A DNA stretch of 64,000 nucleotides, taken from Parasporobacterium sp. (GTDB lineage: Bacteria; Bacillota; Clostridia; Lachnospirales; Lachnospiraceae). The DNA is taken from NCBI GenBank assembly GCA_017510065.1, contig JAFWOB010000086.1, positions 1-64,000 on the forward strand, read 5' to 3'. Made by a program: the position numbers and the translations under genes. A model generated the notes under the pieces. The model had not been told where the DNA came from. It worked only from the letters and a program-made list of their open reading frames with translations, and made no database searches. The first letter of the stretch is position 1; each line of letters opens with the position of its first letter. Positions 6,467 to 51,595 of this stretch are shown piece after piece.

Positions 6467-8260
6467 ATGAACACAGAAGAAATCAAAACCAATTCCTCTC
6501 AGGAAACACAGGAAAACGGATACGCGCTGGACGATGCCAGACGTATTAAGGTACTTTCTCCATCCATGATGGTGTTCAAACGGTTTGTGCGGAACAAACT
6601 GGCCATCGTGGGATTTGTCATCCTGGTCGTGATGTTTATCTTTTCCTTCCTGGGGCCGATCTTCTCGCCTTATTCCATCGCGCAGCTCTTCACGAAAGAT
6701 TCTTATGAGTGGAAGACTTACGCGACAGGCAGATATAACACGGATCCCAATTACATTGTTGCGGATGGTTATGATTTTCCATCCGGTGCCCGCAGCCAGT
6801 TCCTTCTGGCCGTTTCAGGCAAAACCGGCGGAAAAGAGCTGAACATCGGTGACACAGTTTCCTTTGAATCTAACAATGCGAATTATACCGTGACGGTCCT
6901 TGATTTTAAGGACGGAAAACCGGTTTATGCGATAGGGGGCACCGAATTTGTCGCAAGCGCCCTTCTGGGTAAGATCAACAAGATCGAACCGGAGTTTGAT
7001 ACGCCGGAGATCCGGGAAGCCCTCACAGCCAGAGCTGCTGATAAGAAATCCAAAGAGACGACCCTGGAAGTCGGTGACTATACCTTCCAGGTTTCCTCAG
7101 TCGCGAAAGAGATCGTCTTTGAACTGGCCGGGGAAGACAGTGTACTGGTTTCCTACGATGTTTTTCTGGCACTGGACAATGAATATGAACCGCTTACCAG
7201 AAACTTTGAATTTGTCAAAGCAGTTTACAAAGCAGCCGGTGAGGATGAGACTTCTTTTGAGTACGATGGAAAGGTCTTTGAGCTGACAGAGACAGAAACC
7301 GAAACCGAGCTTTCTGTGGATGGCGAAGTGGTGATGCTGATCTCTGATATCAACATTGGCGCTTATCAGACAGACACGGTGCTGTCCAGCGATTTCCTCC
7401 TTAAAGCTTCCGAAGTGATCCGTACAGGCGCAGCAGATTTCTCCTTCACGGACTCCAACGAAGAAGAGGTCAATGCCAGGATCAACCTGGTCAATGGAAA
7501 CTATTATGTAGAGACTGCCCAGAAATCACAGCTGCTGCTGGTTGCTGAAGGCCCGTCTCCTGAGCATCCGCTTGGTACGGACAGCTATGGAATGGATCTT
7601 CTGACCAGGCTGATGTACGGCGGCAGAGTCTCTCTGATGGTTGGTTTCGTCGTCGTATTTTTTGAAACATTCCTCGGTGTTATCATCGGAGGTATTTCCG
7701 GATATTTCGGAAGATGGACGGATACAGCGCTGATGCGTCTGGTAGACCTGGTAAATGCGATCCCGTTCTATCCGACCATCATCATCATCGGTTCTGTTCT
7801 GGATCATCTGAAGGTCGGTGCCACAGCCAGACTGTTCCTGCTGATGGTAGTGATCGGCGTTCTGGGATGGACCGGTATCGCCAGGGTTGTCCGCGGTCAG
7901 ATCCTTTCCCTCAGGGAACAGGATTTCATGATTGCCACGGAAGCTACCGGTATCAAGACTTCCAAGTGGATCTTCCGTCATCTGGTGCCGAATGTCATGC
8001 CATTGCTGATCGTTAACGCCACGATGGGACTTGGCTCTGTAATCCTTCTGGAAGCGACGCTGGGATTCCTGGGCCTGGGCGTCAAATACCCCATGGCTTC
8101 CTGGGGCTCCATCATCAACCAGGCTACCGATATGCATATCATGACGAATGCCTGGTGGATCTGGATCCCGGCCGGCGCGCTGATCCTGATAACAGTACTG
8201 GGATTTAACTTCGTTGGTGACGGTCTGCGTGATGCGTTTGACCCGAAGATGAAAAGGTAG
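6467..8260 (+). CDS. Peptide ABC transporter permease (OppC/DppC type) with large extracellular insertion
   Basis: Second permease of the importer, 597 residues against about 300 in the family. Segment 1 is at about residues 45-63. The usual HPLGTD...LLTRLMYGGRVSL block, normally some 30 residues later, begins only at residue 367. The roughly 295 residues between are hydrophilic, acidic and rich in predicted strands, and would face outside. The C-terminal half is a normal OppC domain with the ATEATGIKTSKWIFRH coupling loop. ATG 6467 has AGGAAGGGGG upstream; an in-frame start at 6431 would overlap the preceding gene and lacks this signal. Confidence 0.88.
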   Translation: MNTEEIKTNSSQETQENGYALDDARRIKVLSPSMMVFKRFVRNKLAIVGFVILVVMFIFSFLGPIFSPYSIAQLFTKDSYEWKTYATGRYNTDPNYIVADGYDFPSGARSQFLLAVSGKTGGKELNIGDTVSFESNNANYTVTVLDFKDGKPVYAIGGTEFVASALLGKINKIEPEFDTPEIREALTARAADKKSKETTLEVGDYTFQVSSVAKEIVFELAGEDSVLVSYDVFLALDNEYEPLTRNFEFVKAVYKAAGEDETSFEYDGKVFELTETETETELSVDGEVVMLISDINIGAYQTDTVLSSDFLLKASEVIRTGAADFSFTDSNEEEVNARINLVNGNYYVETAQKSQLLLVAEGPSPEHPLGTDSYGMDLLTRLMYGGRVSLMVGFVVVFFETFLGVIIGGISGYFGRWTDTALMRLVDLVNAIPFYPTIIIIGSVLDHLKVGATARLFLLMVVIGVLGWTGIARVVRGQILSLREQDFMIATEATGIKTSKWIFRHLVPNVMPLLIVNATMGLGSVILLEATLGFLGLGVKYPMASWGSIINQATDMHIMTNAWWIWIPAGALILITVLGFNFVGDGLRDAFDPKMKR

Positions 8261-14261: not shown

Positions 14262-14449
14262 AACAGCTTATGAACGGTTATTAAGTAGGATATCAGTATC
14301 TTGCCTAATTTAACAACCTGTGAATGATTTTTTCTGTAGAATCGTTCACAGGCTGTTTTTCTGGGCAGGAATCCGAGAAAAACCGTTCATAGGTTGATAA
14401 AAAAGGCATAGCAGCATCCCTCCCGCATAGAAATCGTTCACAGGCTGTT
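14262..14449. repeat. Cluster of five inverted/direct copies of an 18-nt motif
   Basis: Two copies read AACARCYTRTGAAYGRTT (14262-14279, 14312-14329) and three read as its reverse complement (14340-14357, 14381-14398, 14432-14449). The inner pair (14312 and 14340) can form an 18-bp stem with a 10-nt loop followed by five T, and the outer pair (14262 and 14381) an 11-bp perfect core stem around it. The last copy repeats the 14340 copy and its downstream T run exactly. The rest of the 488-bp gap 14221-14708 holds an AT-rich stretch with TATAAT at 14591-14596. Confidence 0.8.
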
Positions 14450-14671
14450 TTTTGGCAGCAGTTAATACGCCGCATCATTACTGGCCTTCGAAGACGGCAC
14501 TTGTATCGCTAGACAAGTTGAGCAGATAAAAATAATTCGTATAGTTTTAATATAAAAATAAGAGACGAAATGAAGTATTTGATGGTATACTATAATAGCG
14601 GTCGAATGCAGCTGAAGCAGTATACATCAAGGAGAATGGAAAGACCGCAGCCTTTGAAAGAAAGGAGATGT

Positions 14672-22833: not shown

Positions 22834-23141
22834 TATTTGAAATCTGTTCTCATATTTAGCATATGCCCGATTTAAGAATACATGGTGTTCTTTTATCGGG
22901 ATTTTTCCATATTTGAGAATACAAAATGTTCTTTATAAGCGGTTTTTCATATTTAAAGAACAGACAATGTATTCTCTATTTCTGGATTTGCTCTATAAAA
23001 GAATATATAATATTCTCATATGGGCATTTTCCGGTATTTAAGAATACATGGGCTGTTCTCAAATATCTGAATTGCCAAAATAAAGAACACTTTGTATTCT
23101 TTTATTTCTAAAAATCTGAAATAAAGAACACCGGGCGTAAT
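22834..23141. repeat. Palindrome array, copy 2 (eight units)
   Basis: Full units lie at 22875-22891, 22916-22932, 22957-22975, 23000-23016, 23041-23059 and 23084-23100, with a right half-unit ending at 22850 and a left half-unit starting at 23125. Units of 17 and 19 bp are separated by spacers of exactly 24 bp. Examples are AGAATACATGGTGTTCT and AGAATATATAATATTCT. The array starts 30 bp after the nudC stop. The rest of the gap up to the next gene (23142-23332) holds short imperfect hairpins and no clear promoter. Confidence 0.9.
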
Positions 23142-38479: not shown

Positions 38480-38492
38480 GTCTGCATTCTAG

Positions 38493-38521
38493 AAAAAAAG
38501 AAGTCCCGTTTTCGGGACTTC
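38493..38521 (-). terminator. Terminator-like hairpin in the leader of the second Y-family polymerase
   Basis: On the minus strand, GAAGTCCCG (38521-38513) pairs with CGGGACTTC (38508-38500) across a 4-nt loop and is followed by seven T (38499-38493). It ends 14 nt upstream of the start codon, so it lies inside the leader of the gene it precedes. Confidence 0.75.
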
Positions 38522-38565
38522 TCAAACCGGAAAACTAAGTCACCTTCCGGTATAGATTCGGCAAA

Positions 38566-38832
38566 AAAACCCGATTGTGTACGCCAATTGCACAATAACT
38601 CCGGTTGTGTACGGCGGAACGGAAGCTTCTTTTGTTCGGACAGTCTTCAGATCGTAATATTGTTATAAAGTTGACCTCTCTGCATTAAAATTTATACTAT
38701 TTTATTTGCGACAAAGAGCTTGCCCTATTGAAAGAGCTCATTTTATGTACACAAACGAGCTTTTTGTGCCATCAGCGTACACAAATGAAAAAAATGTGCA
38801 ATTGACATACGTAACCGTCAACCATACGTAAC
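38566..38832. repeat. Intergenic cluster of inverted copies of a TTGTGTACG-type motif
   Basis: TTGTGTACG occurs at 38575-38583 and 38605-38613, 30 bp apart. Its complement GTACACAA occurs at 38747-38754 and 38777-38784, also 30 bp apart. Related CATACGTAAC lies at 38806-38815 and 38823-38832. A 10-bp inverted pair, CAATTGCACA (38585-38594) and TGTGCAATTG (38795-38804), links the two halves. The 400-bp gap (38480-38883) between two minus-strand genes holds no gene I can support; a TTGACC at 38671 with TACTAT at 38695 may be a + strand promoter-like sequence. Confidence 0.75.
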
Positions 38833-38883
38833 CGGTTCCTTGAGACAGGCTTCCCGGCAGCGTTGTCTTCTGCCTGCAGCTGC

Positions 38884-47083: not shown

Positions 47084-47388
47084 AGAACGCGTGGTGTTCT
47101 CTAAATCCATATTCTTTAATTTAGAGAATACAAAATATTCTTGTATGGCCGATTTTCAAAATTAAAGAACAGGGCAAGTATTCTCAAATCCCGGGTTTGC
47201 CCCAAAAAAGAATAAAAAGTGTACTCATATTGGCATATTTCGGAATTAAAGAATACATGAGTAGTTCTCGAATTTTAGAATTGCTAAAATAAAGAACACT
47301 TTGTATTCTCAAAAATCTATAATTGCCGAATTGAGAACACATCGTGTTCTTGGAAATCAAAAACAGTCAAAAAAAGAACACTGGCCGG
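47084..47388. repeat. Palindrome array, copy 3 (eight units)
   Basis: Units lie at 47084-47100, 47125-47141, 47166-47184, 47209-47225, 47250-47268, 47293-47309, 47334-47350, with a left half-unit from 47375. Sizes run 17, 17, 19, 17, 19, 17, 17 and spacers are 24 bp. Copy 2 has the same order 17, 17, 19, 17, 19, 17 with similar spacers, for example CATATGGGCATTTTCC against CATATTGGCATATTTC. Unit 47293 is identical to 23084. A strong terminator follows at 47404. Confidence 0.9.
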
Positions 47389-47560: not shown

Positions 47561-50500
47561 ATGAGAAAGACACTGAAGCAAAGAACGAAAAATACAGGAT
47601 ACAGGATCCTTACAACAACGATGATCGCAGGGATGACGATCACATCCATTGCTGCACCGGCGATGGCGGCGGAGTCCATGCCGATCACGGATGAAGCAGT
47701 CGAGACTATAGATGCGCTTAATACCGGAACGGTAGAGGAGACTTCTCAGGCTCTGACAGAAGCGCAAGCCAATTACAACCAGGCCAGCACGGATCTGGCC
47801 AGTGCGCAGGCGGAATACGACGCCGCCGTGGCGAACCAGGCGGCAGCCCAGACCGCATATGACAACGCCATTGAGGATGCGCAGGCAGCTTTTGATGCAG
47901 CAAGGCAGGAAGCCGCTGCAGCAGACGCACAGGCGCAGACTGCCCTGGAAGCTGCTCAGACAGGAGCTGCAACAGCTGAAAATGCCATGAATGGTGCACA
48001 GGCAAATGCGGAGACTGCGCAAGCCAATGCAAATACTGCTCAGGCAGCTTACGACCAGGCTGTGGCAGACTGCCCGGTGACGCAGGAAGACATCGATGCG
48101 GCGCAGGCGCAGCATCAGGCGGACCTGACGGATCTGGACGCCAAGGAAGACGCCATGGAAGCGTACGATCCTCTGATTGAGAATAAAGAAAACGAAGTGG
48201 CGGATCTGACAGCTGCCGCACAGACAGCCGAAACCAATGAAGCCGCCGCACAGGAAAACTACGACAATGCTGCAGCTGCCGTGACACAGGCGCAGGCAGA
48301 TGTTGATGCAGCAGACGCCGCAATTTTGTCGAACCTGAACGAACAGGAGCAGGCCCGGACAGCGATTGTAACAGCGGAAGCGGACGTAGCTGCAGCACAG
48401 CAGGATAAGGACACTGCAGACGCGGAAGCAGAAGCTGCATCACAGATCGTGGATAGTGCACAGACGGTTGCGGATACAGCACAGGGCATCTATGATGACG
48501 CGGAAGCAGATCAGACAGTCAAACAGGAAGCTGCTGATGAAGCTGCCGCCGGGCAGCAGGCAGCAGAGGAAGCGGAAGCCGCCGCACAGGGAGTTCTGAC
48601 ACAGTCCGAGCAGGAAGCCGCTGCTGCGGCTACAGCTCTGGAAGAGGCGCAACAGGCCCAGGCAGATGCAGAGAATGCGCTGACAGAGGCCCAGACGAAT
48701 AAGGAAGCGGCAGACAATGCCGTCATTGAAGCGGAGGGCACTCTCACAGCCGCGCAGGCAGCAGCCAATGCGGAAGTAGATGATCAGGTAGCTCAGGCAG
48801 ATCTCGCCATCGTGGCAAACCAGGAAGCTTTGTCCCAGGCCCAGACAGCACTGGAGAATGTGCAGGCTAACTACGACCTGGGTTCTCTCGGATTCGTAAA
48901 CTGGATGCTTCAGAAAGACGGTCTGACACAATTGCAGATACAAGACCTGCAGGCAGCAAAGGCTTTGCTGGAAAGCGCATCACAGACAAGTTTTGATGTA
49001 TATGCAGATTATCAGGGATCCTATGGAGCAACTTTGCCGGAAGAACGGAACAACATGGTTATTGTAACCAGCGACGTAAAAGATGCTTCCAACCTTGAGA
49101 ATGTAAAGAAAGCTATGGTAGTAATGGAGGATATCAACAATCTGCGTGCAGAGGACGATAATTTTTCTTACTTCTCCTATAATCCGGCGGGCACCAACTT
49201 CTATTTTATGGCAGCAGCTCAGAATGCGGCAATGAAAGGTGCAAAGCTCCACAACCATTCCGAAATGGACGATGATGTATACTGTGAAAACCTTGCATGG
49301 GGATACAGCAAGCCCAATAGAGGATGGTATACTTCGGAAAAAGCAATCTTTGATCAGTACAAAGAAGAATTAGGCTATACTGAGATCACAACGGATGATC
49401 AGGTTTCCGAAATCGAATACCTGGCATATCAGAACGGGAAGATCGTTGGACACTACACAAATCTTTTTTACAGCCAGAACCAGGTCATGGGTGTCGGATA
49501 TACCAACTACGCTAACACATGGAGTTATAATGCGGCCAGTGAGGCAAGTGTCAAAAGGAATACATCATCCCATCAGGGGAAACACGTCTATACACTGGCT
49601 GAGTTCCAAGCACTTTTGGACGAATATTACGCAACCGTGGACAGGAGCGCATGCGAGGAGACTGTAGCAGGAGCTCAGGCAGCCCTTGACCAGGCAACTC
49701 AGAACAAGGCTGATATTGAAGCTGGCAGAGATGATTATGTCGCAAACGCAACCCAGACAGAAGCAGAAAATCTGGCACAGCAGCAGGCAGCTGCAGCGAC
49801 AGCCGGTGAGGCGGTCACTAACGCACAGGCAGCTGTAACTGAGAAGACGGAAGCGGCATCACAGGCAGCACAGGAAAAAGATGCTGCGGACAGTTCTGTG
49901 TCACAGGCACAGGAAACACTGACCCAGGCGCAGGCGGATACCGCAGCGGCCACACAGTTGAGTGCGGAAACACAGGCAGCCCTGGAAGAAGCAATCGCCA
50001 ATGTAGCGGCAGCAAAAGAAGACCTGGATGTCGCCAATGCGGATTTGGAAGCCGCACAGGCGGTACTTGAGGAGAAGAATCAGGCTGTGGATGCGGCACA
50101 GGCTGCACTGGATGCTGCTAACGAAACATTGGATGCCGCTAATGAGTACTTGGAGGAATTGAGCTCAGACGAGACGCAGCAGGTCCTGACGGATGCGAAA
50201 GACGCGGCACAGGCTGCTTTGGACACCGCCATCAGTGACAAAGACGCTTATGCGCAGGCACTGGCTCAAGCACAGCAGGCGGTATCCGATGCGCAGCAGG
50301 CTGTAGAGACGGCAGAGTCTGAACTGGCGACGTTAAAGACAGAACAGCAGGCGGCTGCGGAGGATTTTCTGGCGGCACAGGAAACTGCAGCGCAGAGCGA
50401 AAGCGCATTGAATGACCTGGTCCAGGCTTACGCGCCGGTAGTTGCTGCGGCAACGGCGAATGAACAGGCGCAGCAGGAGCTTCAGGGAGCACAGAACAGC

Positions 50501-51595
50501 CTGACCACTGCCACACAAGCGTACAATGAGGCGCAGCAGGAACTGGAAAATGCGCAGGCTGGAAAAGAGGCAGCAGCAGACAAACTGGCAAGGGCAGTGG
50601 CGCTTAGCATGGCGGATGCCCTGGAGAACCAGATCGAAGATGCGGATTTCGAGTACCTGAACCAGTATATCAGTGAATTAAGCGCAAAGATCAATGCATT
50701 GGAAACGTCAGATGCGGCAGTGTCCTCCTGGGTTGCCCAGGTCGCGGAATTCACTGCTTTGAAAAACCAGGCGTATGCGGATTATCTGGCGGCACTGGCA
50801 GAATATGAACTGGCCGTTCATGAAGCATATGTCAATGCGCTTATAAAAGTAGAAGCCAAAGAGCCTACCTATGACGAGGAAGGAAATACGGAATACTGGT
50901 ATTCCGAATCCGATGGAAAATACTATGCCGATGCGGGAGCCGTGACAGAGATTACGAAGGAAGACGTCGTCCTTGAAAAACTGATACGAACCGGCTGGCA
51001 TAAGATCGATGGAGCCTGGTTCTATTACAACACAGAGGGGACAGCTACCACCGGCTGGCAAAAGGTCGGAGGCAAATGGTACTATATGGATGCCGCAGGT
51101 GCCATGCAGACCGGTTGGGTAAAAACCGGTGGAAAATGGTATTATCTGGGATCCAATGGCGTAATGAGGACCGGCCTGCAGGAGATCGGCGGCAAATCCT
51201 ATTATCTGGGGACCAATGGCGTGATGCGGACGGGCTGGGTCACAATCGACAGCCGGCAGTATTATCTGAACAGCAGCGGTGTAATGCAGACCGGCTGGGT
51301 GAAACTCGATGGAAACTGGTATTATCTTGGTGACGGCGGCGCGATGCAGACCGGTTGGGTCAAAAGCGGCGGTAAATGGTATCACATGAGATCCGATGGT
51401 ATCATGCAGACCGGCTGGGTGAAGATCGGCACGAAATGGTACTATATGAACAGCAGCGGCGTCATGCAGACCGGCTGGAAGCAGATCAGCAACAAGTGGT
51501 ATTATTTCACGGAAAGCGGGGCCATGGTTACCGGAACCAGAACAATAGACGGAAAAGAGTACACATTCAATACGTCCGGGGCGTTGATGGGATAA
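47561..51595 (+). CDS. Choline-binding-type surface protein with Ala-rich coiled coils and CAP domain
   Basis: A 1344-residue secreted wall protein. Signal peptide residues 1-37 (ending APAMA). Residues about 55-480 and 700-1090 are Ala/Gln/Glu-rich coiled coils with repeated AQAALE..A patterns. Between them, about 490-695, is a CAP/SCP domain with AENLAWGYS-like CENLAWGYSKPNRGW and GHYTNLFY. A short EPTYDEEGNTEYWY module precedes the C-terminal nine or so GW-type cell-wall-binding repeats (GKWYYMDAAGAMQTGWVK), which should bind choline or teichoic acid. No LPXTG. The protein probably projects from the wall for adhesion or cell-surface interaction. Confidence 0.92.
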   Translation: MRKTLKQRTKNTGYRILTTTMIAGMTITSIAAPAMAAESMPITDEAVETIDALNTGTVEETSQALTEAQANYNQASTDLASAQAEYDAAVANQAAAQTAYDNAIEDAQAAFDAARQEAAAADAQAQTALEAAQTGAATAENAMNGAQANAETAQANANTAQAAYDQAVADCPVTQEDIDAAQAQHQADLTDLDAKEDAMEAYDPLIENKENEVADLTAAAQTAETNEAAAQENYDNAAAAVTQAQADVDAADAAILSNLNEQEQARTAIVTAEADVAAAQQDKDTADAEAEAASQIVDSAQTVADTAQGIYDDAEADQTVKQEAADEAAAGQQAAEEAEAAAQGVLTQSEQEAAAAATALEEAQQAQADAENALTEAQTNKEAADNAVIEAEGTLTAAQAAANAEVDDQVAQADLAIVANQEALSQAQTALENVQANYDLGSLGFVNWMLQKDGLTQLQIQDLQAAKALLESASQTSFDVYADYQGSYGATLPEERNNMVIVTSDVKDASNLENVKKAMVVMEDINNLRAEDDNFSYFSYNPAGTNFYFMAAAQNAAMKGAKLHNHSEMDDDVYCENLAWGYSKPNRGWYTSEKAIFDQYKEELGYTEITTDDQVSEIEYLAYQNGKIVGHYTNLFYSQNQVMGVGYTNYANTWSYNAASEASVKRNTSSHQGKHVYTLAEFQALLDEYYATVDRSACEETVAGAQAALDQATQNKADIEAGRDDYVANATQTEAENLAQQQAAAATAGEAVTNAQAAVTEKTEAASQAAQEKDAADSSVSQAQETLTQAQADTAAATQLSAETQAALEEAIANVAAAKEDLDVANADLEAAQAVLEEKNQAVDAAQAALDAANETLDAANEYLEELSSDETQQVLTDAKDAAQAALDTAISDKDAYAQALAQAQQAVSDAQQAVETAESELATLKTEQQAAAEDFLAAQETAAQSESALNDLVQAYAPVVAAATANEQAQQELQGAQNSLTTATQAYNEAQQELENAQAGKEAAADKLARAVALSMADALENQIEDADFEYLNQYISELSAKINALETSDAAVSSWVAQVAEFTALKNQAYADYLAALAEYELAVHEAYVNALIKVEAKEPTYDEEGNTEYWYSESDGKYYADAGAVTEITKEDVVLEKLIRTGWHKIDGAWFYYNTEGTATTGWQKVGGKWYYMDAAGAMQTGWVKTGGKWYYLGSNGVMRTGLQEIGGKSYYLGTNGVMRTGWVTIDSRQYYLNSSGVMQTGWVKLDGNWYYLGDGGAMQTGWVKSGGKWYHMRSDGIMQTGWVKIGTKWYYMNSSGVMQTGWKQISNKWYYFTESGAMVTGTRTIDGKEYTFNTSGALMG

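Follow-up and report, generated by a model that had tools for sequence, protein, structure and literature searches.

Arrays within the analysed window

The window considered here, meaning the whole 64-kb stretch of DNA that was analysed, begins at base 1 of contig C36 of the source genome (G000) and carries three copies of an intergenic array of short palindromes, all on the + strand. Copy 1 (22845-23141, +) comprises seven palindromic units, with U1 at 22875-22891, U2 at 22916-22932, U3 at 22957-22975, U4, which represents the mirror centre, at 23000-23016, U5 at 23041-23059, U6 at 23084-23100 and U7 at 23125-23141, preceded by a left half-unit, TGTTCT, at 22845. The right half of U7 has decayed and the right end of this copy is lost. 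Copy 2 (47084-47380, +) also has seven units, with U1 at 47084-47100, U2 at 47125-47141, U3 at 47166-47184, U4 at 47209-47225, U5 at 47250-47268, U6 at 47293-47309 and U7 at 47334-47350, followed by the right half-unit AGAACA at 47375-47380; its left end is lost, and in the sequence the copy follows a stop codon and precedes a terminator-like hairpin. Copy 3 is present as the right part only (1-88, +), with U6 at 1-17, U7 at 42-58 and the half-unit at 83-88, as the array is cut by the contig end. Its left part forms the end of contig C118 (L080), judging from the same locus in the sister species G201, and because that locus is uncut the end of C118 and the start of C36 can be read as chromosomal neighbours that were broken inside an array.

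The preliminary description of this DNA correctly recognised the palindromes, their even spacers, the three window copies and the unit-by-unit match between them, and its notion of an inherited, ordered element is borne out by a unit order that is identical across complete arrays. The extents that it gave to the three copies, 22834-23141, 47084-47388 and 1-105, are replaced by those above, and the single orientation that it took to be general holds for the three window copies but not genome-wide, where arrays lie on both strands. What it missed was the palindrome-of-palindromes plan, the half-unit ends and the existence of several families.

The window contains a number of other features. At 14314-14456 (no strand assigned) a second family of intergenic repeats, CAACCTGTGAATGATT / AATCGTTCACAGGCTG, is represented by a short stretch, and this family is suspected, rather than proven, to belong to the same class as the AGAACA arrays. 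Repeats of this second family are also found at L123 (G000:C193, 2209-2290), where G201 has an AGAACA array, L089. Within the intergenic region at 38480-38883 there are short repeats of CATACGTAACCG, 17 bp apart, and of TTGTGTACG, 30 bp apart. Downstream of array copy 2, at 47561-51595, is the gene for a 1344-aa protein with choline-binding-type repeats (Pfam PF01473, PF19127).

Anatomy of the AGAACA array

Across the G000 assembly (3.47 Mb, 242 contigs) the unit AGAAYAC-N3-GTRTTCT occurs at 115 places at ≤1 mismatch, against 0 for a reversed-pattern control, and a BLAST search with copy 1 returns 82 matches at E ≤10. Forty arrays were scored, 31 in G000 and nine in G201, with further array fragments at contig ends standing outside this set, and all seven units are present in 29 of the 40. 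In complete arrays the palindromes are 17-17-19-17-19-17-17 bp in length, as measured with a unit finder that mildly favours the template lengths and allows ≤4 mismatches per unit. The spacers are exactly 24 bp in 154 of 174 cases and 23 or 25 bp in the remainder, such that the unit centres fall 41-42 bp apart, at about -125, -84, -42, 0, +42, +84 and +125.

Fundamental to the organisation of the array is its mirror symmetry, whereby unit i is the reverse complement of unit 8-i. The consensus of U1 matches the reverse complement of U7 at 17/17 positions, U2 that of U6 at 17/17 and U3 that of U5 at 18/19; the self-complementarity of U3 and U5 is only 10/19. The presence of C or T at position 5 of the half-site is position-specific and is likewise mirrored over the array, and it is because this base is set by unit and mirrored that U2, U3, U5 and U6 are systematically mispaired within themselves. 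The earlier statement that pairing is mostly kept within the palindromes is therefore misleading. The spacers are more variable between copies (identity 0.57-0.66) than the units (0.77-0.90), and they mirror one another weakly in register, at 8-12 of 24 bases.

Most copies finish sharply in terminal half-units, of which TGTTCT was found at 29 left ends and AGAACA at 32 right ends. Immediately beyond them conservation is under 0.7 bit at the first base and ≤0.4 bit thereafter; a few copies have a fuller outer unit. Given these half-unit ends, the array can also be read as eight 36-bp modules, TGTTCT-N24-AGAACA, which are joined by linkers of 5, 5, 7, 5, 7, 5 and 5 bp.

Whole-turn spacing in other repeat families of the genus

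Unrelated repeat families in G000 and in two other congeners have spacings that are quantised to about 10.3-10.4 bp, at 21, 31, 41-42, 51-52 and 61 bp. This recurrence supports the suggestion in the preliminary description that a protein could bind all of the sites on one face of the DNA. Three further families (GAGATATGTAC, TATGCATGATTTT and GAAAAATTGCAGCA) were searched for in 14 genomes. The first, with lags of 40-44 allowed, gives 57 pairs, all in the congener G210. In 17 G210 arrays, which have arrangements such as >>><<<<, the step within an arm is 42 bp in 65 of 71 cases, the others being 41 (4), 39 (1) and 84 (1), and in the 16 arrays with a centre the central gap is 52 (5), 31 (4), 51 (3), 21 (3) or 41 bp (1), giving an R of 0.97. 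The centre gap thus differs between arrays by about whole turns only, and the number of units per arm varies as well. Over the 16 spacer bases compared, identity is 0.33 against 0.27 expected, which means that the sequence of the G210 spacer is nearly random and that its length is nonetheless kept.

With lags of 25-55 allowed, the TATGCATGATTTT family gives 36 pairs, in G000 and G201, which fall at 41 (24), 31 (8), 42 (3) and 52 bp (1) and nowhere else. In G000 its arrays, at L066, L151, L167, L073, L089 and other loci, have forward and then reverse copies with steps of 31, 41, 42 and 52 bp and centre gaps of 31 or 61 bp. The GAAAAATTGCAGCA family (lags 34-64 allowed) is confined to G203, where 24 pairs fall at 42 (14) and 61 bp (10), some of the arrays (C12 and C37) being near-duplicates. 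The plan of forward and reverse arms is seen in the AGAACA, TATGCATG and G210 families, and in G203 only the spacing is seen; a narrow pattern for the TATGCATG family, which was too specific, matched at one place. In G201 the inverted pair TCATGCG-N21-CGCATGA occurs four times, exactly every 52 bp (L125, G201:C169, 1100-1290). At L053 (G000:C37, 10654-10860) TGTCCGT / ACGGACA half-sites follow one another about every 42 bp, and their G/A differences are reminiscent of the C/T variation in the AGAACA family.

When the families are pooled the best period is 10.3 bp, from a list of distinct lags that includes 73, a composite of 31 and 42. A broader test took the lags of intergenic direct repeats (≥9 bp) in four congeners, with AGAACA regions filtered out, and returned a period of 10.40 bp with R 0.59 over 108 region-lags, or R 0.48 over 58 regions with one lag per region (p<0.0005). 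Removal of L084 and L091, two regions that had passed the AGAACA filter, leaves R 0.58 (101 region-lags) and R 0.47 (56 regions, p<0.0003); G203 alone has n=8 and p=0.17. Among 20 arbitrary G000 pieces, excluding the window and AGAACA regions, 11 of 64 intergenic regions hold a repeat, with R 0.70 and p=0.002, and arbitrary G210 pieces with one lag per region give a weak signal (R 0.32, p=0.077, 26 regions). Samples from 21 other genera, which are small at ≤20 kb from each of 20 genera and 186 kb from one, carry no such spacing signal; the 20 genera together have R 0.13 over 8 regions (p=0.89), and G022 gives R 0.48 with p=0.25 (6 regions). A tandem repeat at L083 (G000:C188, 3307-3550) has a period of 68 bp, which lies off the whole-turn rule (68/10.4 = 6.5), and the phase tests exclude it. 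The null in these tests takes lags as uniform and ignores shared ancestry, so that the p-values overstate the case to the extent that whole-turn spacings within one family are partly inherited; for the same reason the argument rests more on how the centre gaps vary and on how many families there are than on the p-values.

Genomic setting, distribution and turnover

The arrays are biased to the 3' ends of genes. In the 29 of 40 arrays for which a simple gene caller found both neighbours, the flanking genes are convergent in 14, in the same direction in 15 and divergent in none, rows that are not fully independent because four of the nine from G201 share their locus with G000 arrays. Background gaps of ≥150 bp in G000 are convergent in 8/76 and divergent in 18/76 (p=7e-5 and 0.003, respectively, against the arrays). 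Against gaps of ≥250 bp the convergent excess persists (p=0.003) and the divergent deficit is weak (0/29 versus 5/37, p=0.06). The arrays of G210 are never divergent (0/12 versus 24/84 in the background, p=0.03), and one TATGCATG array (L089) does sit between divergent genes. The 146 neighbour proteins of the G000 arrays, judged by sequence, include no obvious shared candidate and no recognised transposase; the families that occur at two or three arrays are transporters, a sigma/anti-sigma pair, a response regulator and one unnamed family. Insertion-sequence-like DNA of three or more kinds lies within or next to several arrays (L063, L077, L070, L071, L075 and L091), and one insertion-sequence protein at these arrays resembles, by eye, an IS256-type transposase.

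BLAST finds the AGAACA family in 2 of 14 congeners, and a two-unit pattern occurs in 1 of 200 genomes sampled across the bacterial family, namely the source genome, in 2 of 61 relatives and in one record of an 84,980-species collection from which the source genome was possibly left out. Neither the 72,556 plasmid records nor the 50,697 phage records searched contain a match to the array. A viral origin was considered and rejected, as the single IMG/VR match, which lies in a tailed-phage contig, is to a short direct repeat rather than an array, and viral scans with the other repeat families found nothing.

Between the two sister species the arrays turn over. Four of the nine G201 arrays share a locus with a G000 array, three lie at loci where G000 lacks one and for two the locus was not found. 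At the three loci concerned, L088, L089 and L091, G000 is without an AGAACA array, and divergence of the intergenic DNA prevents the junctions from being placed exactly, such that no clean empty site is seen; at the L091 locus the G000 contig ends in an insertion sequence. Seven G000 loci were sought in G201 and one was found, L066, where the G000 array is at 6721 and G201 has instead the 52-bp TCATGCG family together with a remnant of the AGAACA ends. In the orthologous arrays L074 (6146, G000) and L090 (7501, G201), the AGAATAC half-sites have mostly become AGAACGC in G201 and those of AGAACA type are unchanged, as if one class of half-site had followed a change in a putative protein.

Alternative explanations

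What kind of element has a fixed and mirrored order of sites, sharp ends and near-exact spacing beside variable spacers? The main rival to a DNA scaffold is a non-autonomous transposable element (MITE), made up of two transposon ends without cargo and with four transposase modules in each, an origin that is regarded as rather unlikely. Two joined ends would produce both the mirror symmetry and the TGTTCT...AGAACA termini, which form terminal inverted repeats that are sharp in most copies, and such an element would also be expected to show dispersed copies of constant order, a two-sided organisation that resembles left and right ends, and a mixture of shared and unshared loci such as that between G201 and G000. 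Against this, the 22 two-ended copies have no target-site duplication (lengths 2-10, offsets 0-15, compared with permuted pairs), transposases were not recognised among the G000 neighbours and the loci compared between G000 and G201 offer no clean empty site. Moreover, the number of units per arm varies in G210, and the near-exact spacing of its arrays beside nearly random spacers exceeds what dead inserted copies should keep.

A second explanation, in which the arrays act as operators for one transcription regulator with many targets, is considered very unlikely. The palindromic half-sites do have the size of operators, and the arrays L057/L086 lie immediately upstream of a gene. However, operators would be expected as single sites at promoters, and none of the 29 arrays with both neighbours called lies between divergent genes, the array neighbours have no visible common pathway, and strong sites in G210 are nearly confined to arrays (105/107), leaving just two outside, one of which is at the edge of the sequence fetched.

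A third, which is more doubtful still, is that the element acts as RNA, either as a long hairpin or as a row of stacked hairpins in 3' untranslated regions. Copies 1 and 2 of the window fold with z-scores of -11.6 and -6.1, shuffling of the spacers weakens folding in 28 of 29 arrays, and the position of copy 2 ahead of a terminator-like hairpin would suit such a role. Strong folding of single copies is, though, to be expected from the inverted arrangement, and the variation between copies does not behave as that of an RNA. In the one-strand cells within units G-U (78) and A-C (71) are about equal. Overall covariation is weak, with z-scores of 2.7 within units and 4.0 for half-sites across spacers, and is carried by U4 (z 5.2) and S45 (z 5.9), where it probably reflects two subfamilies; there is none in spacer interiors (z -0.1) or between the units of opposite arms (z -0.5), and the arm-to-arm comparison of spacers gives z 1.4. 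The C/T variation in the arrays is not hairpin covariation. Exchange of spacers between copies is neutral, giving a mean energy of -80.8 versus -80.7 for the natural arrays, which are lower in 13 of 29, and an Rfam search of the window matched only a tRNA. The pitch of RNA helices is 11.0 bp, a value at which the pooled spacing signal disappears, and as the period is about 10.3-10.4 bp the spacing fits double-stranded DNA and not RNA. The stacked-hairpin reading offered in the preliminary description is thus rejected, as is a single long hairpin: the arrays are foldable, yet they have little covariation and the wrong helical pitch.

Least credible is the view that the arrays form a REP/BIME or REPIN family and that a RAYT transposase spread them by acting on hairpins in single-stranded form, which would match the palindromic clusters, their 3'-end bias and the insertion sequences in several arrays, as REPs are described as insertion-sequence targets in the abstract of PMC1525189, but which is opposed by the lack of hairpin covariation, by the finding of an adjoining GTAG, CGTC or GGAG tetramer in 0 of 224 units on either side, and by the absence of whole-turn spacing from the accessible text of PMC3733652 and PMC3116915, in neither of which portions does the word 'helical' occur. 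A Y1-transposase motif has a match in 0 of the 1350 genes that were called, a set that takes in only part of the genomes.

A proposed DNA scaffold

The arrays are quite likely to be a scaffold on one face of double-stranded DNA. From the sequence we infer a protein, its assembly and its role, as follows. A sequence-specific putative protein would bind the repeated half-sites in double-stranded DNA. Because the sites are separated by whole helical turns, with four turns from one unit to the next, bound copies would sit on one face of the DNA, where they could join into a single complex with two-fold symmetry about the central unit, U4. Such complexes would form at the 3' ends of genes, often between convergent genes, and the arrays spread and turn over between species, either by transposition or by recombination between copies. 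The role of the complex could, tentatively, be one of organising or insulating the chromosome at the ends of transcription units. Such a role is favoured over a transposon-end origin because there are no target-site duplications, because there is no linked transposase and because spacer length survives where spacer sequence is nearly random. The statement as a whole, in which a putative protein assembles on one face of a scaffold that has a chromosome-organising role and that spreads and turns over, is held with moderate confidence.

The sharing of a DNA-pitch geometry by unrelated sequences, with centre gaps that shift only by whole turns, suggests that selection has acted on the way in which protein assembles along the helix. 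There is accordingly some attraction, at less than even confidence, in a genus-wide reading, namely that of a fast-evolving system in which the recognition sequences differ and the geometry is kept (two opposed arms, and steps that are always whole helical turns, about four of them), and in which diversifying DNA-coating proteins might build symmetric complexes between genes.

Comparison with known systems

Intergenic repeats in bacteria are usually explained by hairpins, by transposition or by single operators. A full-text literature search, with subscription papers largely outside its reach, found nothing like the arrays, and REP/BIME, MITE, structured RNA and operators each fail at least one tested feature, the survey outside of the genus being small. 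Together with their sister families they suggest a putative protein that assembles along one DNA face between genes, and the array DNA offers a bait with which a new system, either chromosome-organising or mobile, could be found in bacteria that form a common group in gut and rumen.

The likeness to REP/BIME sequences is that palindromic units make up tens of copies between genes, which occur in either orientation, sit at gene 3' ends and are targeted by insertion sequences. The arrays differ from them in having neither the GTAG/CGTC tag nor kept stems, and in having a fixed, mirrored order of seven units with whole-turn spacing, so that the proposed role would be BIME-like in position and not in sequence. 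Foldback-type elements have inverted-repeat arms that are made of subrepeats. Like these and like MITEs, the arrays are dispersed inverted-repeat elements with sharp ends and arms of subrepeats; unlike them, they are without target-site duplications or a linked transposase and show whole-turn phasing, with arms that vary in G210. A further parallel is with the partition centromeres of ParR/parC and TubR/tubC, where phased repeats underlie a higher-order protein complex. The arrays are set apart from these centromeres by their many chromosomal copies between genes and by the lack of a plasmid or phage match, and they resemble them in the phasing of the repeats, on which, by analogy, the assembly of a putative protein complex is proposed here.
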